From: a virus
IMG/VR virus record: IMGVR_UViG_3300008107_000180
Location: 1-48,963 of that record
Length of the DNA stretch: 48,963 bases
Reading direction: 5' to 3' (one strand)
The notes under the pieces are model-generated. The model saw nothing but the letters and a program-made list of their open reading frames with translations, searched no databases and was not told where the DNA came from. The translations under genes were made by a program, and so were the position numbers. Below are positions 2,335 to 48,963 of the stretch, one piece after another (the stretch's first letter is position 1; every line of letters begins with the position of its first letter).

Positions 2335-5300
2335 TTATTTTCTAAAACTTTCTTGAGCTTCTCCTTTATTAATTAAGTTAGTAACTGCTGTTGTAAGAGG
2401 TAACAACTTAGCTCCTTTCCATAACAACTTACTATCACCAGAATGTTTACCAGATTTATATTCTCCATTACCTTCTAATGTATCTACAAAACTGTCACTA
2501 AATTTAGCAAAATCTACAATTATACTTGATACAGGAAGTGCTGATCTAGTTATATTATCAAAAGCCATAGGACTATAATAAAACTCAATATCATCTTGTA
2601 ATCTAAGTATTGTGTTAAGACTATAGTTTTTAGCTCTTCTAGTCCATTCATCATCATCGTCTAGTCCAGATAATAACATGAACATACCCATCATAGAAAG
2701 TTTGAAATAAATCTCTCTAAGATTCTTCTTCATGTTTTCTTTTACTATATTTAGATTATCTTCTTCTAGATTTAAATCTTTAAAAGAAGAATCTTTACCT
2801 CTAGTAATAGCTAATTTCAATAAAGTTTTTAGTGAATTTTTCCAACCTAAATCGTAATATGTTAAGTATCTACCTTTAGTTGTTCTTTCTAGATAGTTAT
2901 CATACTTTTCTCCATCAAATCTTTGAGCAACACCTTCTGGAATCCATCTTCTAAATTGAATTAAAGCACGACCTACAAACTTCTCATTAATAGCTATATT
3001 AGCATTAGGATCGTAGTTACCATGTATCTTTTTCAATAAGCTATCTAACTTGAACTTGAATTTTAAAGTGTTAGCTCCTAACTCTGAATACTCTGAATTT
3101 TCTCCAAATTTTTCAGTATTCCAATTACCATTTTCATCAAATGCTTCAAATAAGCTTATTTCTTTTTCTACTCCATCTTCTGTTACTTTTACTTTAGTAG
3201 CATTAAGTAATGCCACCATAACTTGACCTTGTACAAAATATTCACCTTGTGCATATAACTCATATGGAGATAATTTTTGAAGTCCTTTTCTAGCTTTGTT
3301 ATAGTTAGTTGTAGCACTATATATTTTATCTCTAAGTTGTTTTACTGTATTAAATTTAATCATTAAAGATTCAACCTTTTTTCTTGTAGAAGAATCATTT
3401 GGAGATTGAGCAATTAGCATTGTACCAATTGCTTTTTGTAAATCATCATCTGAATAATCAACTCCAGTTGCTGCCCAGTTAGCATTAGCTAATTGACCAA
3501 ATAAAGCATTGTTTACTCCACCAAATATATTCCAACCCATACCTTTAAGTTGAGTATATTGTAATAAAGTATCACCTACTTTTGACCAAGTTAAAACTCT
3601 AGTATATTTTTCTGTAGCTTTACTTATAGCATTTGCTTTCTTTACATCTGTCATATCAGATGCTTCAATTTTTTGTATTTCTCTTGCTAATTTTTCTTTA
3701 TCTGCTGATGTTATAAATTGAATATTTGATCTACCTTCTTTATTATCTTTCTTTATTCCATATAAACCTGCATCTATTGCATAATTAAGTTGACTTCTTA
3801 AATTAGCTAATCCTTTTGTAGTTGTAGTTTTACCAACTTTATCAGTTTCTAAAGCATTATCTAATATAGATTGAGAAAGTCTTATCTTATCTTCAATTTG
3901 AGATTTATGTTTATATCCAATTGCTTGTGCTGCAAATAATTTAATTACTTGAGTAAGATTATAAGATTTATCTTTTGGATCTAATTCTTCTAAGTATTGA
4001 AAACTAAATTGTTTTTCTTCTTTACCTGTCTCTGGATTTACAAGTTTTTGTACTTCATTTTTCTTAACACTAAGTTCTTCTAATAAAGCACTCCAAGTTC
4101 TATTTGCATATTTGTTTATACCAGTATCATGTAACTCCTCAAGTAACTTCTTGCTTATTGAAGGAATATCAGTTGATTTAAGATTCTTTCTAACATTATA
4201 CGGTAAGTATTCATTCAACTCTTTCATTGTAGATACATACCAATCGTAATATTCTTTTAAATCATCATTTTTTTGAAGTTCATTATATTTAGAATCTTCC
4301 CATTGAGATTTAGCTCTTTTAGATATAAATTGCCATCCATGATTATATATAATTTTTCCTTCACTCTTTCTAATAGTTAATCCATTTACTAAGTTATCAA
4401 TGTAGATTAATGGACTATTTTCTAGTTTCCATGTTTCTAATATTCTAGCTGCATCAGGATTATCTTTAGTAGCTTCTATTTGCAATCTTAACAAATCATT
4501 ATATTCTTCTGTCTTTTCTTTTGCTTCTTTAATTACTTTTTGATAATCTTCACCTAATTCTTTTTCTAATGCTTGTAGATATTTTGCATCTGGTTTATAG
4601 ATAAATATACCATCATTATCTTCTTGATACAATTTGTTTGGATCAACTATAATATGATTTTCTTTTATCCAATTATAATACTTTTCTGATGCTTTTTTCT
4701 TAGCTCCAGGATTAGGTGCATCTTTTATGTTCTCTAATAGTAAATCTCTAACTCTAAAATATTCATAAGATAAAGCACTTACTACTGAACCTGTTAGTTG
4801 TCCATCTTCATCTACTTGACCAAATACTCTAGCAAAATCCTCTCTTGAAGTAATGTTTAATTTAGATAATTTTTCAGTTAAATCTTCTACTCGTTTAATT
4901 AGTTTATTTAATTCTGTAGTTGTTGCAAAATCAGCAGTACGAATTAATTGATCTACTACATCAAGAATTACATTATTAGATGTAGATATATCTCTAGTTT
5001 TTGATTGAGTATATCCTACATCAGAATGTACAGTTAATTGATCTCTTGATACATTTCTTTTTAATAAATCTTGCACTAATTGTATTTCTACTTCTATTTT
5101 TGCTTCTTCAATTCTTGTATTTAATCTTTTAGCTTTTTCAGCTATTTCTTTAAATATAATTGCTTTAGGTGATTCAGTTCTAACATCATAACTAGATAAA
5201 ATTTTATAAATATCTATGTTATCTATATTAGACCAAGTACCTAAGTATAAAGAACTTCTTTCTAATTCACTTTCATTTAACTCTGGTTTTGCTAAAATAG

Positions 5301-8300
5301 ATTCTATATATTTAAAATCATTATTAGCAAACTTAATTAAAGTTTCTAAAGTGTTATCTGCAATTAGTTCTTCTTTTTCTAATCTTATTTCTTTTAATCT
5401 ATTAGTAAGTGTAGTAGCTAAAACTTTATCTTTGTTTGCATTTGCTTTAGTTATATCTTCACTAATTCTTTTTTCTCTTACTTCAAAATCTTTAATTACT
5501 TTTTCATAATTCTTTTGTTCTTCTTTCTTGATTTTCTTTTCTGCTAAATCATAGAAAATTTGTTCATCTTGAGTTGTATTATCTGACTGTTGATTTGTTT
5601 CATTTGTTAACTTAATTAACTGAACAAATGCTTCTTCAAGAGCTGATCCTTTATTAATATTAACTAATTTACCAAACTTATTAAGTATCTCAGATATTAA
5701 ATCTATAAATCTATCAAGTAAAGATTTATCAGCATCATAAGGTATAGAATTTAATAAATCTCTAAATTCTTCTTGTAATAAAGCATCATGTAAGAAATCT
5801 TCTACATTAGTTAAGCCATAAAACTTTGCTTTATTAGTAAGTAAAAATTCATTCTCTTGATCTGTTACTCCTTTTTTACTTCTAAGTTTTGCTAATATAC
5901 TTTCGTATTTAATAAAATCAGCACTATTCCATTGAGTAAGTTCTCCAGATAATACTCTTTCTCTTATAGAATTGTATAAAGTATTTATAGCTGCTCTAGC
6001 TTGTATTTGCTCTGGTGTAGGAGTAAATTCTGATCTAAATAGTTTTGTATTAAGAACATGTACAATCTCTTTTAATATTGTAGATTCTACAGTTTCTCTA
6101 TTTAATCTTCCTTTATCTTCTAATTCTTTTAAACTTACTCCGATAGTCTTTTGATCCCATCTACCAAAGTAACCTACTTCTTCTGTAGATTCTATTTTAA
6201 TATTTCCTATAATACCTTCTAATTTCTTAAATAGATTAACTAGTTCTTTATGATATTTATTATTGTTTATATTAGATAATGCTTCTGATACAGTAACATC
6301 TAATATACCATCAAACTCATCTTCTACAAAAGGATTAGGATAAGTCTGTGGATTATTAACAGTTTCTCTTATTTGAAAATCTACAGGATTATCTACTTTG
6401 TCTTGTTGATATTCATTAAAGAATTTCTTACCTAAAGTTGGAATAGAACGATAGATATAATTACCATCTTCATCTCTATTATCTAGTTTATATAATTTCT
6501 TATTTAAATTAAATACAACTACAGGTTTTGTAGAACTAGCAGATATTAATTCTCTAGGTATTTTTTCTTTATTAATAGTTATTACTCCGTCTTTTATTTT
6601 AACATCAGCAGTATTATTTAATCTAACTGTTAAATAAGGTTTGTGTTGAAATAATTGTAATAGTACATCAGAAATTTCTGGTTTATAACCATAAGTTTCT
6701 GGTATAGAAAAGTTTACTGTTTTTGCAAATTCTGATAATCCTATGTTGGTAAGCATAGAAGCATCTATAAATCTACCCCAATCTTTCGAGTTAGTTATAC
6801 CTCCATTAAGATAAAAATATCTAATTAAATCTTGTCCTATTGATACTATCTCTGGATCTTCATTATATACTAATTCATAGAAACTCTTGTAAGTATTTAA
6901 TTCTTCTATATCAGCTTCTTTTGAAGAATTATAAAATACATAAGAAGGATTTTTTCCACTTAAATCTACTTTAGATAAATCTAATCTTAAAATAAATTGA
7001 TTATTTTTAAGTTTAGTTTTTCTTAAAGCATTTATTCTTGTATTTAATGATTTGTTATCTTTACCATCAAAGAATATTCTAGTTCTTTCAGTAGGATCAA
7101 AGTAGTTAGAGAATATAAAAGCTTTTATAGCTTTCCATACTTCATATTTTTGATCAGTATTAGGTTCTTTGTTTGTAATACTCTCGTATTGTTTTAGTAA
7201 CTTTTTAAATTCCTCTGTTGAGTAAGGCATTAAGTTAGAGTTCTTAATTACATCATCAGCAGCAAATATTGAATTTGTAAGTGCATAACCAGTAATAGTA
7301 TTAGGAGTCAATTCTCCTTCATCAAATTCACCAACTAATTTGTTTATATTTTTAAACTGAATTGAGTTAAATAATTTATCAATAGAAGTTCTTCTATCAG
7401 ATAAATCTAATAAACTTTTACCGACTCCTTTAGATTCTATATTTAATAGATTCTGAAATCTTGATAACTTATCTCCTATTTCTTTAAGTTGTGCAAACTT
7501 TTGTAAAACTAGTACTTGAATTTCTTCATTAGTTAAGTCAGTTTTACCTTCATTAAATAAAACTTGATTAAAATGATTTTTAGATAATGGATAATTTTCT
7601 AGATCATCCATTTTAAGTTTAGTACTTAATTCGTTGTATAGTACACTATTTTCTTTTATAAGATCAAGTAATATATCTTCTTCTTTTTTTACTTCATCTT
7701 GTAACTTACTTTTACTTAATTTTACTCTTTTTGTATATTCTTTAAGTATTGGTTGAGCAAGTAATCCATATATCTCATCTTCTTCTAATCCTAAATCAAG
7801 CATTAATGTTAATGCAGATGATGTTGCAGGATTTACGTTAATATAAGATAATATAGGATTGTTACCATTATCTACAGATGCAGATTGAATTGATTGATGA
7901 AGTTCATTTTTCTTTCTTCCAGAATATGTAAATGCAGAACTTAAATCTGAAAATTCTTTTATTTTACCGTCTACCTCAAAAATTATATAATTTGGTACAT
8001 ATTGTTTTTCATCATTTATAACTACTACTTTTTGTAAGGATATTTCTTTTCCTTGTAATAGCGTACTAAATGTATTACTTACAGAAGTAATACCAACCAT
8101 AGCTTTACCATCTACTGATTGTAAATATTTGTTTTTAGAATAATCAGGATTAAGATAATTTTCTTTATTAGTATTCTCTTGTTTTTTTATCTTTTCAGCT
8201 ATACCACCTTTCTTGCCATCAGCAGTTTCATAACTAATTTTTCCTAAATCAAGAGGTTTAACTACTGATTCAAATACTGATTTGTTATATAATACTGATT

Positions 8301-43634: not shown

Positions 43635-44783
43635 TTAATAAAAGATGTGAGTAAACCTAGCAATTTGTCCATGTTCTTTATGATGTAAAAAAGCTTCTAT
43701 TGCTTTCGCTGCATGTTGATAACCATTTCTATGATGCCATCCATCAGTACCACTTGGTGATCTTACAGATTCTACAGTTACAGAACCATATTCTTTTGAT
43801 CTCTTATGATGTATATGATGTTCGTAAAAATATCTATGAATACAATAATGCCAATGTTGACTAGCTTCTTGAGCCATAAGAATAGGAAGTTCTGCTGTTT
43901 TAGCACCATCTCCATGTGTACTACCTATTAAGTTCTTACCATAAGCTAAGTACTTTCTATGTGCAATACTAACTTCAAATTCAATACTATCTACTTTAGA
44001 ATACCAACTCTGGATTGTATCGGCAAGAAAAAAACCATGAGTAAAGTCATGGTTTGAGGGGTTGTGTTTGATACTTAATTTCTTCGCTAAAGGTATTAAT
44101 CTATCTATTATCTTTATATAAAGCTGCTTCGCTCGTATAAAGTTTGAGTACCACATACCATCTGTATCTTGTGGTGTACCACTTGTAGTTGTTCGCTTTG
44201 CATTATCAACATGAAGTATATCATTACCAATTAACAGAAGTATTTCATCTATTGCAAATGGTGATACTTTAGACAGTAAACCTTCTAAACCTTCAAGTAC
44301 TCTATTAAAAGCTATTTCTACATTATATTCTTCTCCACTTTCTAACACTTGACAAAGTTTACCTATATGAATATCTGCTGGATCAATAACAAGTAAATGA
44401 GCTTCTTGAAGAACTGAGTAGTTATAATTAATGTTTGTATAATTAGGAGCATGAGCTTTCATACTCTCAATTATTTCATCTCTTACAGTAAAATAAGTTT
44501 TGTGATTGTTCTTAGTAAATATAGAGAAGTGTTCTCCTTTGTACCAATAATGAGAAACATCTTTAATAGGTATACCTACTTCTTTAGCTTCTTCTTCTAA
44601 TGCTAAATGTTCATTTATATCTTTATGTTTATAATGATGATCATAATAAATCTTTTTTACAAATTCAAAGGTAGTATTTTCTTGAATTGCTAATCTTCTA
44701 AACCAATGTTGTTTACTCTTATCTTTCTCAATATCTAACGGATTATTTGCAAATATACTTTTCCAATCTCTTCTCTTGGGCAT
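43635..44783 (-). CDS. Calcineurin-like metallophosphoesterase
   Basis: The 382-residue protein carries family motifs in order: DPADIHIGKL (Asp137, His139), LLIGNDIL (Gly-Asn-Asp 186-188), NPSNHD (243-246, a Ser variant of Gly-Asn-His-Asp), STHGDGAK (289-294) and EHHIHHK (321-327). These are two-metal phosphodiesterase ligands, so DNA, RNA or nucleotide phosphodiester cleavage is expected. The first ~130 residues are an extension with a helical, possibly DNA-binding segment (QENTTFEFVKKIYYDHHYK). Many His residues appear near the C-terminus. The substrate cannot be read from sequence. A long GC-rich leader precedes the start. Confidence 0.8.
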   Translation of the reverse strand: MPKRRDWKSIFANNPLDIEKDKSKQHWFRRLAIQENTTFEFVKKIYYDHHYKHKDINEHLALEEEAKEVGIPIKDVSHYWYKGEHFSIFTKNNHKTYFTVRDEIIESMKAHAPNYTNINYNYSVLQEAHLLVIDPADIHIGKLCQVLESGEEYNVEIAFNRVLEGLEGLLSKVSPFAIDEILLLIGNDILHVDNAKRTTTSGTPQDTDGMWYSNFIRAKQLYIKIIDRLIPLAKKLSIKHNPSNHDFTHGFFLADTIQSWYSKVDSIEFEVSIAHRKYLAYGKNLIGSTHGDGAKTAELPILMAQEASQHWHYCIHRYFYEHHIHHKRSKEYGSVTVESVRSPSGTDGWHHRNGYQHAAKAIEAFLHHKEHGQIARFTHIFY

Positions 44784-45006
44784 ACTTATTCGATAAGGTA
44801 TAGTAACTTAGACATATACTAACTAGTTGATTCGTTCATAATTGGACACACCTCTCCAATATACTACCTATATCCACTTTCTTTTCTCTGTGTGGAGGTT
44901 CATGTCCTGCGGACGGCTGGGACATGTTCCATTTGCTCGATCCCTCGCAAATGTAACGCTGGTGGAAATACAAAACAAGAAAAATCGTAAAAAAGTAAAA
45001 AGATCG
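44784..45006 (-). other. Structured GC-rich leader upstream of the phosphoesterase gene
   Basis: This gap of 223 nt is much richer in GC between ~44890 and 44965 than the surrounding DNA. Perfect hairpins occur: CATGTCC/GGACATG (7 bp) and ATTTGC/GCAAAT (6 bp), plus TTGGA/TCCAA nearer the start codon. The minus strand is the 5' untranslated leader of the phosphoesterase, so a regulatory RNA or RNA-processing element is possible. A short minus-strand frame also lies inside. No tRNA fold could be drawn. Confidence 0.4.
44836..44925 (-). CDS. Possible leader peptide (low confidence)
   Basis: A 29-codon frame starts at the ATG at 44925 (MSQPSAGHEPPHREKKVDIG) and ends at TGA. It sits inside the GC-rich leader and its GC-rich codons contrast with all neighbours. 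It could be a leader peptide, or chance coding in a structured RNA. No supporting homology. Confidence 0.2.
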   Translation of the reverse strand: MSQPSAGHEPPHREKKVDIGSILERCVQL

Positions 45007-45012
45007 CTAGTA
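44996..45012. repeat. 17-bp repeat, copy 2
   Basis: Identical to 2317-2333 over 17 bp in the same orientation, 42.7 kb away. Here it overlaps the stop codon (45007-45009) of the 72-residue gene; the other copy lies just past a stop codon. Both copies precede a minus-strand gene with a long or structured leader. Confidence 0.6.
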
Positions 45013-45225
45013 TTCCAAAAGATTATCATCTTGTTGTTCATTCACTAATTCTATCAAACCTAAATATTCTTCTTTACTTGTTATTGAGTTAGAACTATTG
45101 TGAATACAAAACATATCACCACTATCTTTATCAATATAAACTATTGGATTACACTGACATTCAGTTCCAGCTTCGTCACTTATATCATGTTCATAATTAT
45201 GCTCAACTTTAAATATATGTTGCAT
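45007..45225 (-). CDS. Small acidic protein
   Basis: The 72-residue acidic protein begins MQHIFKVEHNYEHDISDEAG. It has a TECQCNP pair of cysteines (24, 26) and a later FCIHN, so a small metal site is possible. It follows the zinc-ribbon gene by 4 nt. Its last codons and stop lie within the 17-bp repeat. Function unknown. Confidence 0.5.
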   Translation of the reverse strand: MQHIFKVEHNYEHDISDEAGTECQCNPIVYIDKDSGDMFCIHNSSNSITSKEEYLGLIELVNEQQDDNLLEY

Positions 45226-45229
45226 AGAG

Positions 45230-45415
45230 TTAAAAATTTATAACTAATTGATGAGTAGAATAAACCGTATATTTTTGAAGTGTAGGTTTTAATTCCTCTT
45301 TTATAGATAAATATACTTGTCTATTACCACATTGACAAGATACATATATAGTAAGAGCTTTATTGGTAAATTTTACCTTATCTCTTTTATTACAAGTATT
45401 ACAGTGAAATATCAT
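45230..45415 (-). CDS. Small zinc-ribbon protein
   Basis: In this 61-residue protein, Cys5-x-x-Cys8 (HCNTCNKRDK) and Cys27-x-Cys29 (YVSCQCGNRQ) form a probable zinc ribbon, leaving little beyond it. It is the first minus-strand gene left of the divergence, so is likely expressed from a promoter in 45416-45654, perhaps early. Small zinc ribbons often act as adaptors or transcription factors; no target is visible. Confidence 0.6.
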   Translation of the reverse strand: MIFHCNTCNKRDKVKFTNKALTIYVSCQCGNRQVYLSIKEELKPTLQKYTVYSTHQLVINF

Positions 45416-45654
45416 ATTGTAAGTTTACGACATATATATCTTGGAAAAAAATTTTTTTATAATTTTTTAAAAATGATTCGTATATATGGGTTAGACCTAT
45501 CAAAAAAATTTTTTATATAATTTTTTATTTTGTTTGTATATTTAGATGGAAGTACCTCCCCCACACAATGCCCCCTACAAAACTTTGGGATGGAACTACC
45601 CGTCATCAAGTTTCGTTCGTAAAATAAATCGTAAAACCTTAAAAAACAATAACT
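45416..45654. promoter_or_regulatory. Divergent intergenic region with tandem A/T-tract elements and direct repeats
   Basis: The gap separates minus-strand and plus-strand gene arms. It holds two copies of an A7-T6/7-(AT)-T6 element (45445-45468 and 45502-45526, 57 bp apart) of the kind that bends or melts easily. To the right, a locally GC-rich stretch carries the imperfect direct repeat GATGGAAGTACC (45545-45556) / GATGGAACTACC (45589-45600). Divergent promoters are certain in principle but no clear -33/-7 pair was found, as would suit phage-polymerase promoters. An origin is possible. Confidence 0.5.
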
Positions 45655-45957
45655 ATGATTACTGAAAACATCGTATCTCGCAAAAATGTCGTTAAAGACA
45701 GCAAAGAACTAGTATTAGTTACTACTGCATCAGGTGCAGAAATTTGGGTTCCAAAGACTCAACTAAATGATGCAGCAGAAACTGTATCATTTAATGTACA
45801 CAAAGCTGGTTCTACATGGACTAACAGTAAAACAGGAGCAACTGGTGTGCGTAAAGCTGATGCAACTGAATACATTGGTTGTGGTCGCATCAACAAGTTT
45901 GCTATCTTGGACTATCTCAAGTCACAAGGAGTAACACCAACATTTACTTTGGGTTAA
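45655..45957 (+). CDS. Small, probably highly expressed early protein of unknown function
   Basis: The 100-residue protein begins MITENIVSRKNVVKDSKELV, with LVTTASGAEIWVPKTQLND near 20-38 and FAILDYLKSQGVTPTFTLG at the end. Codons are more balanced (CGC, GTC, ATC) than in neighbours, a sign of high expression. It is the first plus-strand gene after the divergence, with an A-rich leader ending AAAAAACAATAACT. A terminator-like hairpin follows at 45965-45995. It might bind DNA or RNA as a small beta-barrel, but I recognise no family. Confidence 0.6.
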   Translation: MITENIVSRKNVVKDSKELVLVTTASGAEIWVPKTQLNDAAETVSFNVHKAGSTWTNSKTGATGVRKADATEYIGCGRINKFAILDYLKSQGVTPTFTLG

Positions 45958-45962
45958 TAAAT

Positions 45963-46049
45963 ATGAGAGTTGTAGCTATAATGGTTATAACTCTCTATTT
46001 TATTGTTATTGGCTACGCGTTGACACACGAATTAAAACAATTAGAATAA
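45963..46049 (+). CDS. Possible 28-residue membrane peptide
   Basis: A frame of 28 residues begins MRVVAIMVITLYFIVIGYAL and ends THELKQLE: a single hydrophobic helix with a short charged tail. It begins 5 nt after the stop of the 100-residue gene. Against it, the start lies in a hairpin (GAGAGTT 45965-45971 with AACTCTC 45989-45995) that is followed by TATTTTATTG, so the same bases may simply be a terminator. Confidence 0.35.
   Translation: MRVVAIMVITLYFIVIGYALTHELKQLE
45965..46003 (+). terminator. Terminator-like hairpin after the 100-residue gene
   Basis: GAGAGTT (45965-45971) pairs with AACTCTC (45989-45995), with an inner TATAA/TTATA pairing, and is followed by the T-rich TATTTTATTG. 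It lies 8 nt past the stop codon. It overlaps a possible small membrane-peptide gene, and either reading could be right. Confidence 0.5.
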
Positions 46050-46230
46050 AATATAGTATCAGCTATATATTAAAACTAATAATCTCTCTGATAGGAGATT
46101 GGGAATATGCTATGCCCCGTAGCTATTGATAATATCTTGCGCATTAAGATATTATACAGAAAATACAAAAAAATAAAAGAATGTAAATATCAAATTAGTT
46201 TTGCAAGACTAGTTTGATTGCCTTTTATTT
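46050..46230 (+). ncRNA. Candidate small RNA: four tandem hairpins plus terminator
   Basis: Between 46050 and 46410 I see no credible gene. Four adjacent hairpins tile 46051-46155. They are ATATAG/CTATAT (46051-46068), AATCTC/GAGATT (46081-46100), AATA-GCTA/TAGC-TATT with a one-base bulge (46104-46127), and a 10-bp ATAATATCTT/AAGATATTAT (46129-46155). The terminator-like stem at 46191-46216 follows, and a fifth perfect hairpin (TATTTTAC/GTAAAATA) lies at 46236-46261. The rest, 46262-46410, is AT-rich leader with nothing I can assign. No promoter was identified. Confidence 0.5.
46191..46216 (+). terminator. Strong terminator-like hairpin with TGCA tetraloop
   Basis: CAAATTAGTTT (46191-46201) pairs over 11 positions (two G-U) with AGACTAGTTTG (46206-46216) around a TGCA loop, followed by ATTGCCTTTTATTTT. 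This is suitable for intrinsic termination on the plus strand. Confidence 0.7.
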
Positions 46231-46410
46231 TATAGTATTTTACAGAATAACACGTAAAATATGTGATTAACAGTATGTTTATGTTTTGCTACTCGTTATA
46301 ACTCTCCTTTAACCCTCAATATTACACGAATTATCACTAACCTAATATTATCAATCTATATATTAGCAATCTTTCTCATAAATTAACAGAAACTAACCAT
46401 AAAAACTAAC

Positions 46411-46536
46411 ATGAAAAATCTAACAAACGAAGAACAATCAGCCAAAATTGTGGGCAACATTATTGTCGGAATCATTGCTATTCTTGGTGCAACTTACATC
46501 ATAGTAGGTCTTTACATGCAAATTAATCACTTATAG
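46411..46536 (+). CDS. Small single-pass membrane protein
   Basis: The 41-residue product begins MKNLTNEEQSAKIVGNIIVG and continues as one hydrophobic helix (IIAILGATYIIVGLY) to a short tail. An A-rich leader (AAACTAACCATAAAAACTAAC) with no Shine-Dalgarno precedes the ATG, as for other plus-strand genes here. A membrane peptide expressed early could act in host takeover or superinfection exclusion. That role is speculative; the membrane segment is clear. Confidence 0.55.
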   Translation: MKNLTNEEQSAKIVGNIIVGIIAILGATYIIVGLYMQINHL

Positions 46537-46539
46537 ACT

Positions 46540-46617
46540 ATGGAAATCACAGTATTCATCCACGGTGTTGCTCATACTGCAATAATAATTGCTGGTATTG
46601 CAACTTTAATTGATTAA
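46540..46617 (+). CDS. Possible 25-residue membrane peptide
   Basis: A 25-residue frame begins MEITVFIHGVAHTAIIIAGI and ends ATLID, hydrophobic from residue 9 on. It starts 3 nt after the stop of the 41-residue membrane protein, so coupled translation is plausible. It is too short to be certain. Confidence 0.35.
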   Translation: MEITVFIHGVAHTAIIIAGIATLID

Positions 46618-46623
46618 CTATTC

Positions 46624-46654
46624 TTTCGAGATTAGTAAAAACTTAATATCTTTG
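46624..46654 (+). promoter_or_regulatory. Bacteroidota-type promoter
   Basis: TTTC (46624-46627), 19 nt, then TATCTTTG (46647-46654). The -7 box matches TAnnTTTG exactly and the -33 box differs by one base from TTTG. It should start transcripts near 46660 through the genes at 46861 onward. A long imperfect palindrome begins in the -7 box. Confidence 0.65.
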
Positions 46655-46860
46655 CAGTCTAATACGTACACTAATAATGTATCAGTATTAGCTGCAATAG
46701 ATATTATAATATTAAAATTAGATTAGTAGCATTAAGATAGAGTGGCTACCTAGATTAATAATAATCTTCTGGTGTTATTAATTGCTAGTTTAATTCCAAC
46801 ATTGTAGGACAATCGAATCTACCTAATTTTATTAACACAACAATCTAAACAACAAACAAG
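46655..46860 (+). other. Structured 5' leader of the 143-residue gene
   Basis: The 200-nt leader has an extended hairpin, GCAG-CTAATAC/GTATTAG-CTGC with inner TACA/TGTA (46654-46695). It also holds GTAGC/GCTAC (46726-46749) and CTAG-ATTAATAA/TTATTAAT-CTAG (46750-46788). The last 30 nt are A-rich and unstructured, leading to the ATG. Together with the promoter this looks like a regulated leader; no known riboswitch was recognised. Confidence 0.45.
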
Positions 46861-47292
46861 ATGAAAACAAAAGAAACATCATACATTTGTAAAAAATGTA
46901 ATGGATTAGGAAAACCTTCTAAAGCATTACAAAACACATTAGTAGAATTTATAGATTTTCCTAATGGTAAAAAAGGAGATAGAGGTAATACTTTATCGAG
47001 ATCAGGACAAGCTATATTAATTAATTGTATTAAATGTATATCTTGTGGTCATTCATGGATTCCACATGAAAAAATATTTGAAGAACAAGCTCATTTAGCT
47101 GGTGCTGTTCTAGAGCTTAAAACAAATCAAAAACAATTCAAAGAGTTTGATCCTAAACTATTCAAACAATACATAGATAAGTTTAGTGACGACCATAAGT
47201 TTAATATGTTCTTAGTCTTATTGAAAGACTTTAAATTAGAACCATATATTGAATCTAATATAATGACATTAGTAGCATTAAGAAACATATAG
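46861..47292 (+). CDS. Zinc-binding hypothetical protein
   Basis: The 143-residue protein begins MKTKETSYICKKCNGLGKPS. Cys10/Cys13 and a second cluster CIKCISCGHSW (Cys56, 59, 62) suggest a split zinc ribbon in the first half. The second half is helical and ends SNIMTLVALRNI. A large share of small phage proteins of this type bind nucleic acid, but the target is unknown. It is the first gene of the transcript from the 46624 promoter and ends 2 nt before the next start. Confidence 0.6.
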   Translation: MKTKETSYICKKCNGLGKPSKALQNTLVEFIDFPNGKKGDRGNTLSRSGQAILINCIKCISCGHSWIPHEKIFEEQAHLAGAVLELKTNQKQFKEFDPKLFKQYIDKFSDDHKFNMFLVLLKDFKLEPYIESNIMTLVALRNI

Positions 47293-47294
47293 AT

Positions 47295-47572
47295 ATGAAA
47301 ACACCAATAGCTCAATCTAAACATGATCTACATGAATGTTATGGTAAAAGAATTGTAAGCACAATAGCTTACAATCTACCATATCGTATTGCTAGACATA
47401 AAAAGAAACTGCTAAATATTATCAATTACTTGAATGGAAAGATAGTAATATCAATAAGTTCAAATTGTGGTGTCATGAGTATAGATTTATATTTGCAGAA
47501 ATACAGTATGAGACTATTAATCTATTTACTCAACCAGCTTATGATGCATTATTAGATTTTAGTAACATTTAA
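47295..47572 (+). CDS. Small gene with an apparent -1 frameshift at AAAAAG
   Basis: The frame from the ATG at 47295 (MKTPIAQSKHDLHECYGKRI) stays open to a TAG ending at 47555, but after residue ~36 it becomes Ile/Leu/Ser-rich and unlike a protein. The -1 frame is closed by TAA just before 47402 and then opens as ETAKYYQLLEWKDSN and on to AYDALLDFSNI, ending TAA at 47572. It looks like the real C-terminus. The switch must occur at the A-run and G 47400-47405. Programmed -1 shifting or a one-base deletion would give a ~92-residue protein. Function unknown. Confidence 0.55.
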
Positions 47573-47581
47573 AATATAAAT

Positions 47582-47785
47582 ATGCAATACATAACTAAAC
47601 TTAAACTTGCAGCTATTCATCAATTATGTGATCACAAAGATAAATCAACTGAATATATGTATCAGCTAATGCAAGATACAGCTAAAGTTGATTTAGATAC
47701 TGTTAATAGTTATATGACTAACGAAAATCATAGTAAGTTATTTAAAGAACTAAATAGTTTACTTGAATTAATTGAGAAACTATAA
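47582..47785 (+). CDS. Small helical hypothetical protein
   Basis: The 67-residue helical protein begins MQYITKLKLAAIHQLCDHKD and ends FKELNSLLELIEKL with regular Leu spacing. It follows the frameshifted gene by 9 nt and is the last gene before the structured 552-nt stretch. No family recognised. Confidence 0.5.
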   Translation: MQYITKLKLAAIHQLCDHKDKSTEYMYQLMQDTAKVDLDTVNSYMTNENHSKLFKELNSLLELIEKL

Positions 47786-47787
47786 GA

Positions 47788-48339
47788 CTTAACTCTTCTG
47801 CTTGAAGATAAACACATCAAGACTTGTTCTTAAAAAGCAATAATGAGATGGTCTGTTCTAGCAGTTAATGTTTGTTGTAGAGATAGTATAACGCAGGAAC
47901 AATAGAAATATTGGGAAAATAGCCTGACTGCTATTTCAACTAGAAATTTGGACAGAAGAGTTATTAACTATTAAAATCAGCTGTTTAATCAGCAAAATAC
48001 TTATGCACATCTGTTAATAAGCTCATTACTTATTAAAATCTGATTATAGTAATATAATTAATGAGAGAGGTTAAATTAAGGATAATGCCAGAAAGCTCCT
48101 TATAAGTATTGATTTTGAAAAAGGTTTTTACGTTGGTAATAACAATTTTATGGCTTTAAATGTAGCTATCATTAGGTGCATCTGGAAACGATGCAGCTAC
48201 CAACTGTAAAGACTGAAAAGAAATAGATTGGTAGTAGGGATTAACAAATATAGGAGTGTCCTTGATGCTTGATCAAATATGTAGACTGCCTTGAAACTAT
48301 GTAACTACCAATCTTATTTTAAACTAAAATTAAAACAAC
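47788..48339 (+). ncRNA. 552-nt gene-free region with four tandem structured RNA domains
   Basis: I find no credible coding frame. There are four closed domains. (1) TAACTCTTCTG/CAGAAGAGTTA, 11 bp (47790-47800, 47953-47963), encloses CTTGA/TCAAG, TGTTC/GAACA and a 7-bp AAATAGC/GCTATTT. (2) AATACTTAT/ATAAGTATT, 9 bp (47996-48110), encloses an 8-bp hairpin whose loop CTCATTA matches TAATGAG at 48059-48065. (3) A continuous 3' strand 48190-48204 pairs with TGCATC, GTAGC and GTTGG. (4) AGATTGGTAGT/ACTACCAATCT, 11 bp (48225-48314), sits 26 nt before the next ATG. It may be one large RNA or a riboregulatory leader. Confidence 0.5.
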
Positions 48340-48963
48340 ATGAACAAGAAACTACAGGTAGTAATGCTACCATCTAATGGTGAAAAAGATTTACAAACTA
48401 GAGATAGTTTATATTTTTATTCAGCAATTGACAATTTAGTAAAAGGGTTTTTAAATGCTCGTTCTACTAAACATGTACCTCAACATCTCTACTTTCTTTC
48501 AGATGAAGAAATAAAAGAAGTTGATTGGTGTTTATATAAAAAAACAGTTGTAGGCGAACAACCTTTTCAAATGAGAAAGGAGTTGTTGATTAATAAAGCA
48601 TGGTTCAAGAAAATCATAGCTACAACAGATAGTTCATTACTAGTAGAACATAAACTACCTTTAATGACACAACATTTATCATTACCTCAACCATCTCAAT
48701 CATTTCTTGAATTGTATGTAAAAGAATACAACAAAGGAAATCAGATTAAAGAAGTATTGGTTGAGTATGAAGAAATAGATTCTGATAAACTGTATACTCC
48801 GCAAGAAGCAAATTTGTACCCTAAACTTAAAATCAATCCAAAAGACAACACTATCAACATTAAGAGTGTAAAAAATAGCTTTACTAGAAAAGATATGTTA
48901 AATGCTTATGCTGCTGGATTTAATAGGGCAGAGTGGTTATATTGGAATGAATATTATCAAGGT
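48340..48963 (+). CDS. Hypothetical protein, C-terminus beyond window
   Basis: 208 codons are open from the ATG at 48340 (MNKKLQVVMLPSNGEKDLQT) to the window edge. It is mixed alpha/beta, with EEIKEVDWCLYKKTVVGEQP near 57-76 and an aromatic SFTRKDMLNAYAAGFNRAEW stretch near the edge. The VMLPSNGE start and EVDW element remind me of a family of hypothetical proteins in Bacteroidota phages, with no function known. The A-rich leader (AAAACTAAAATTAAAACAAC) has no Shine-Dalgarno, and a possible attenuator structure precedes it. Confidence 0.6.
   Translation, partial: MNKKLQVVMLPSNGEKDLQTRDSLYFYSAIDNLVKGFLNARSTKHVPQHLYFLSDEEIKEVDWCLYKKTVVGEQPFQMRKELLINKAWFKKIIATTDSSLLVEHKLPLMTQHLSLPQPSQSFLELYVKEYNKGNQIKEVLVEYEEIDSDKLYTPQEANLYPKLKINPKDNTINIKSVKNSFTRKDMLNAYAAGFNRAEWLYWNEYYQG

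Follow-up and report, generated by a model that had tools for sequence, protein, structure and literature searches.

GOLLD and ROOL are elaborate phage RNAs that lie beside tRNAs and have no known function. Both are found near tRNA islands and form kissing loops (PMC12286853). The variable region or linker of GOLLD sometimes contains a tRNA, and ROOL combines a conserved kissing loop with covariation support and a non-conserved linker (PMC12286853). The locus described here resembles them in some respects. Comparison with relatives indicates that region 47786-48339 is a genuine RNA locus, in which two or more distinct structured noncoding RNAs follow one another on the + strand; taken as a whole, together with the processing, trans action and role proposed for them below, this explanation is judged probable.

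The window (the whole stretch of DNA analysed, 48,963 nucleotides) forms the terminal part of a contig from a crAss-like phage, with a large terminase (phrog_6681, E 2.8e-95) and a major head protein (phrog_11589). The region is flanked by a 67-aa ORF, which ends at 47785, and by a gene starting at 48340, all on the + strand. It contains no credible ORF, and an ORF check gave nothing of note, in agreement with the preliminary description of a gene-free region. ARAGORN reported no tRNA genes in the window. No Rfam family matched the window at its curated threshold; with thresholds relaxed, only weak matches (tsr26, SNORD43, RAGATH-19 and others) appeared, which were dismissed as far under their cut-offs. 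Four helix-closed domains (D1 to D4) had been proposed, and stems of all four were located in the sequence:

47790-47800/47953-47963, + strand, closing stem of D1, 11 bp
47996-48004/48102-48110, + strand, stem of D2, 9 bp, extended by 6 bp at 47973-47978/48111-48116
48127-48138/48198-48210, + strand, stem of D3, about 12 bp with a bulge
48225-48235/48304-48314, + strand, closing stem of D4, 11 bp
48340-48963, + strand, downstream gene of the phrog_15656/VOG6379 family, annotated as of unknown function, running off the contig and used as anchor for relatives

Perfect stems of at least 8 bp at such spacing were equalled in number in 97 of 300 dinucleotide shuffles, and a stem of at least 11 bp was present in 20 of 300. 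Stems of this length are common in shuffles of this AT-rich sequence and by themselves are weak evidence. The folding z of the whole region against shuffles is moderate (-2.34), with values of -2.1, -1.2, -4.7 and -3.0 for D1 to D4, respectively. Because stems are so frequent in shuffles and the whole-region z is moderate, the observation alone does not suffice for the claim; the evidence from relatives, not the stems, is decisive.

Searching by the downstream protein retrieved a twin contig (L001), which is 99.6% identical to the window across the region with two base differences, and a 51% relative (L002), which has part of domain 1; its version of the closing stem shows two compensatory changes. 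When the region was compared directly with phage records by blastn, there was no match. The twin contig has about 108 additional bases at window position 47408/47409; because these fall within ORF 47295-47555, the window probably carries an altered form of this ORF. The twin contig also carries a tmRNA (6045-6434, 75.6 bits) that was missed by ARAGORN and lies past the window's end, about 400 nt downstream of where the match to the phrog_15656 gene stops. Elsewhere in the window, 44784-46860 is a gene-poor stretch of about 2 kb with one 100-aa ORF and strong local hairpins, e.g. near 45965-45999, and might contain additional RNAs.

Islands of domain 1 sequence were found in further loci, and pattern scans for this family, here called family A, yielded 16 and then 77 viral contigs. 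Family A is present in at least 75 viral contigs. Among about 85,000 species genomes the pattern matched one bacterial record, a Lutibacter MAG contig. A covariance model, R1, was built from 12 seed sequences that included neither the window nor L002, with the interiors of the variable arms trimmed. In the first loci R1 picked out about 25 distinct members, among them those of the isolated Cellulophaga phages phi14:2 (1283-1439, beneath annotated gp003) and phi17:2 (beneath gp172); the phi17:2 copy was also found in phi4:1 by blastn. In the window the only good R1 match in 49 kb is at 47789-47963 (55.3 bits, E 1.5e-9), and R1 run against D2-D4 with filters off gave just P1-like chance matches. 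The exonuclease at 43635-44783 was tried as another route to relatives and was rejected, with family A in 0 of 80 loci; these loci (1.07 Mb of other phage DNA) were retained as negative control and contain no R1 match. The window member is a unit of 175 nt, referred to as RNA 1, with the following features:

47789-47963, + strand, RNA 1, member of family A, model positions 1-124 (cmsearch with R1)
47791-47800, + strand, P1 5' strand, pairing with 47953-47962; changes on both sides at 10 of 10 pairs in relatives
47807-47814, + strand, P2 5' strand, GATAAACA, pairing with 47869-47876; pairing kept in relatives
47815-47850, + strand, variable arm P3; covariation among relatives at its CATC/GATG base, no conservation inside
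47853-47864, + strand, hairpin H1, loop UUCUAG at 47856-47861
47869-47876, + strand, P2 3' strand, TGTTTGTT, pairing with 47807-47814
47883-47934, + strand, variable arm P4, closed at the base by ATAG/CTAT; compared in relatives
47935-47952, + strand, hairpin H2, with CUAGAA at 47940-47945 complementary to the H1 loop
47953-47962, + strand, P1 3' strand, pairing with 47791-47800; covaries in relatives

Family A thus consists of a closing stem P1, a stem P2 bearing the variable arm P3 and H1, a second variable arm P4, and H2, with a size of about 150-280 nt. In the twin contig U47936 is replaced by C, making a U-G pair of H2 a C-G pair. In a set of 30 distinct sequences, pairing holds in 93% of cells and double changes occur in 32 of 37 pairs, with 0 of 500 shuffles as high; 50 further distinct sequences gave 94.5% and 30 of 37, with all shuffles lower. 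These shuffle controls ignore ancestry, and the structure-fitted alignments are biased towards the model. Slid-alignment controls were paired at 33-54% (33-47% for the 30-sequence set), compared with 93-95%. In a MAFFT alignment made without structure, in which P4 is misaligned, pairing in P1 and P2 reaches 99%, with a covariation score above that of every shuffle. Those members that were retrieved by a pattern spanning H1 and the 3' strand of P2 are conserved there by construction. Taken together, the comparisons make it close to certain that family A is a structured RNA family. The preliminary description had named covariation among related crAss-like phages as a check; covariation is seen in relatives, for an RNA on the + strand, and phrog_6681 and phrog_11589 mark the phage as crAss-like. 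The tests it had set for itself (no covariation, free drift, a match to a known intron or protein) were run, and its claim of a structured RNA came through them.

The loops of H1 and H2 were left unpaired in R1. In the window UUCUAG (47856-47861) and CUAGAA (47940-47945) form six complementary pairs. This complementarity is kept across at least six different sequences, the two loops changing together: UUCUAG/CUAGAA (window and L002), UACUAG/CUAG, UAUCAG/CUGAUA, GCUAAG/CUUAG, UUCCA/UGGAA, UUACAG/CUGUAA and UUCAG/CUGAA. The observed complementarity was reached by 0 of 5000 re-pairings. Several of the loop pairs lack self-complementarity, so that a loop of one kind needs a partner of the other. 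The contact may form within one molecule or between two; either would fit the sequences.

In nine contigs (L189, L193, L201, L208, L217, L224, L226, L239 and L242) family A has a tRNA gene on either side, 5-13 nt away, in tRNA/tmRNA arrays of up to 24 genes. Since tRNA genes lie this close on both sides, family A would be a stand-alone processed RNA, probably released as a free RNA from the tRNA transcript. This location is that of a subset of the family A phages, and in the window ARAGORN found no tRNA near RNA 1. Some phages have two copies with different arms (L101, 7495-7681; L225, 6554-6786 and 9058-9292; L244; L202), and between the copies of L101 the kissing-loop pair differs as well (CUAAG/CUUAG). 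A P3 arm in L101 contains a tRNA-like cloverleaf (7316-7382) with a clear T-arm, scoring only 16 bits with the tRNA model. Further tRNA-like elements with a clear T-arm and long inserts occur at L005 1470-1647, L007 1468-1645, L008 2941-3110 and L006 1758-1850, with no ARAGORN or Rfam call; in Calle_1 the element immediately precedes an annotated RtcB RNA ligase gene. Of the 49 contigs found through the RNA, about 20 have a strong match to a crAss-like terminase and the others do not, some of them being fragments. Family A may be wider than one phage order.

Domains 2 and 3 form a second element, RNA 2 or unit C, and domain 4 is separate:

47973-48216, + strand, RNA 2, unit C (D2 + D3), with tandem homologs in L249 and others in L252, L257, L259 and L260
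47973-47978/48111-48116, + strand, P1 of RNA 2, part of unit C
47980-47993, + strand, hairpin of RNA 2, part of unit C
47996-48004/48102-48110, + strand, P2 of RNA 2, part of unit C
48127-48138/48198-48210, + strand, stem of RNA 2, part of unit C
48225-48314, + strand, domain 4, helix-closed element with an 11-bp closing stem, z about -3

L249, a relative reached via the protein at 46861, has two tandem units directly after that gene (5578-5740 and 5754-5965), both of which match 47973-48216 of the window. They keep AAAATC, the hairpin GCTG..CAGC, P2, GATTTTGAAAAAGGTTTTTACGTTGGTA and TACCAACTGTAAAGACTGAAAAG, the second copy less exactly, and the interiors of their arms are wholly different. 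One or both halves of unit C occur in L252, L257, L259 and L260. P2 changes together with its partner (AATACTTAT/ATAAGTATT, CACTTA/TAAGTG, CAAT/ATTG), as judged by eye, the automatic alignments being poor. The support for RNA 2 comprises about six sequences with few compensatory changes; the family C pattern was present in nine contigs, several of which were rejected as chance matches inside protein genes. RNA 2 thus appears to be a conserved scaffold with replaceable arms, and D2 and D3 may be one unit or two modules that usually co-occur. The hairpin loop CUCAUUA of domain 2 (48022-48028) matches, without a mispair, the complement UAAUGAG located 30 nt further on (48059-48065), a possible pseudoknot. 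For domain 4 similarity searches among relatives gave no homolog, and it is listed as a structured-RNA candidate.

A second unlisted RNA, family B, was observed at roughly 25 distinct loci, with a length of about 300-450 nt:

L006 (phi14:2) 2994-3399, family B locus
L246 7240-7740, family B locus
L207 12564-12998, family B locus
L014 5733-5982, family B locus
L044 5615-5902, family B locus

It has a hairpin with a GNRA loop, a CUUGAGAA loop complementary to a later UUCUCA, and the stem ACCCTACTCTTAT/ATAAGAAAGAGGGT. Family B often adjoins family A and precedes the VOG6379 gene. D2-D4 were considered as a diverged copy of family B, which in L014, L044 and L019 lies upstream of the same gene, and showed no similarity to it.

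We propose that the RNAs are released in tRNA fashion by cleavage of a polycistronic transcript, and that they would be stable when free and would act in trans. A common partner, such as the ribosome, the host RNase/tRNA machinery or other copies of the RNA, would hold the conserved core and the loop-loop contact, and the arms would bear elements specific to the phage or host; a tRNA-like cloverleaf is contained in one P3 arm. The likeliest role, offered as a guess with rather less than even confidence, would be to support or protect translation and tRNA function during infection; it is favoured along the lines on which GOLLD and ROOL are viewed.

The preliminary description had joined all four domains into one large multi-domain RNA comparable to GOLLD or ROOL, a single ornate molecule over all 552 nt. 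Four closed domains in a row, an overall z of -2.3 and the kissing loops that GOLLD and ROOL form near tRNA islands (PMC12286853) speak for it; however, family A occurs alone between tRNA genes spaced 5-13 nt away, unit C occurs without family A in L249, L252, L259 and L260, and the predicted fold has no long-range pairing joining the domains. A single large RNA is therefore very unlikely; the stems of the proposed grouping hold, and the grouping itself gives way to an autonomous D1, a joint D2 + D3 and a separate candidate in D4. The region might instead act in cis, as a leader or terminator of the phrog_15656 gene at 48340, e.g. a riboswitch or attenuator. It lies immediately upstream of that gene, and RNAs of other families lie upstream of the gene's homologs in L002, L014 and L044. 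Family A itself, however, is found in L002 about 3.2 kb downstream of the homolog, not upstream, and elsewhere inside tRNA arrays, and the gene is present in only 16 of the 49 contigs found through the RNA, many of them fragments; a cis role is judged unlikely.

Variable arms on a constant core, the tRNA setting and the cloverleaf of L101 7316-7382 (16 bits) would also suit decoys or regulators directed against host defence, for instance as tRNA mimics aimed at anticodon nucleases or as antisense RNAs that work by way of the arms. Most arms are not tRNA-like, however, and the target is only hypothetical, so that this would hardly be a probable account. A degenerate or highly divergent known RNA (tmRNA, RNase P RNA, tRNA, group I or II intron) is extremely improbable: tmRNA and tRNAs do share these neighbourhoods, but the window lacks an Rfam match to any such model even at relaxed thresholds, the twin contig has a separate tmRNA, and the architecture fits none of these classes. 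The earlier exclusion of RNase P RNA, tmRNA and introns is thus upheld. An array of separate, trans-acting RNAs remains the preferred reading.

Rfam searches of the window and relatives gave no match for the RNA, in keeping with the preliminary claim of a new phage RNA, and members of families A, B and C have no match in Rfam 15. No earlier description of families A-C was found in the open-access journal articles searched. The families may already be listed, without a name, among the 3161 candidates from human microbiomes of Fremin and Bhatt 2021 (PMC8040213). Family A appears to be a previously unlisted, widespread phage RNA family. In phi14:2 and phi17:2 it is concealed by an annotation as hypothetical protein. 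Hypothetical proteins overlap the RNA families at L006 1321-1434 (gp003) and 3106-3431 (gp007-gp009) and at L008 2757-2915 (gp172), and they are unlikely to be real genes; some of the annotations no longer appear in RefSeq NC_021806. As a small and common RNA that cultured phages carry (phi14:2, phi17:2 and phi4:1 on Cellulophaga baltica), family A makes the role of such RNAs testable.

Among known systems, the manA and wcaG motifs of cyanophages are likewise phage structured RNAs found by covariation, but they are reported to be linked to particular kinds of genes (PMC2864571), whereas family A is tied to no one gene. Phage tRNA and tmRNA genes share with family A common arrays, tight spacing and ends joined by a closing stem; family A differs in its conserved core and has neither a cloverleaf core nor a tag reading frame, and neither ARAGORN nor Rfam found a tmRNA (RF00023, with tRNA-like domain and tag frame) in the window. 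ROOL is also phage-encoded near tRNA islands, with a kissing loop and a variable linker, but is about 650 nt long and assembles into a homo-oligomeric nanocage, with a different structure and no Rfam match to family A. GOLLD is likewise a phage-encoded structured RNA near tRNA islands with loop-loop contacts and a variable region, and it is often over 800 nt with another structure; the autonomous 175-nt family A unit has neither the length of about 800 nt nor the universally conserved 3' region of GOLLD. A GOLLD-type association with tRNA islands was found for family A in nine contigs and not in the window. By cmscan the GOLLD and ROOL models were negative in the window and relatives. Of the comparison first drawn with GOLLD and ROOL, the setting therefore holds (tRNA islands, kissing loops, variable linkers), while size and homology do not. 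More speculatively, and with considerable doubt, family A may represent compact phage RNA scaffolds, co-processed with tRNAs, with a loop-locked core and exchangeable arms, some of them tRNA-like, which would be small counterparts of GOLLD and ROOL co-located with B and C; families A, B and C would then be a set of co-located phage RNAs.
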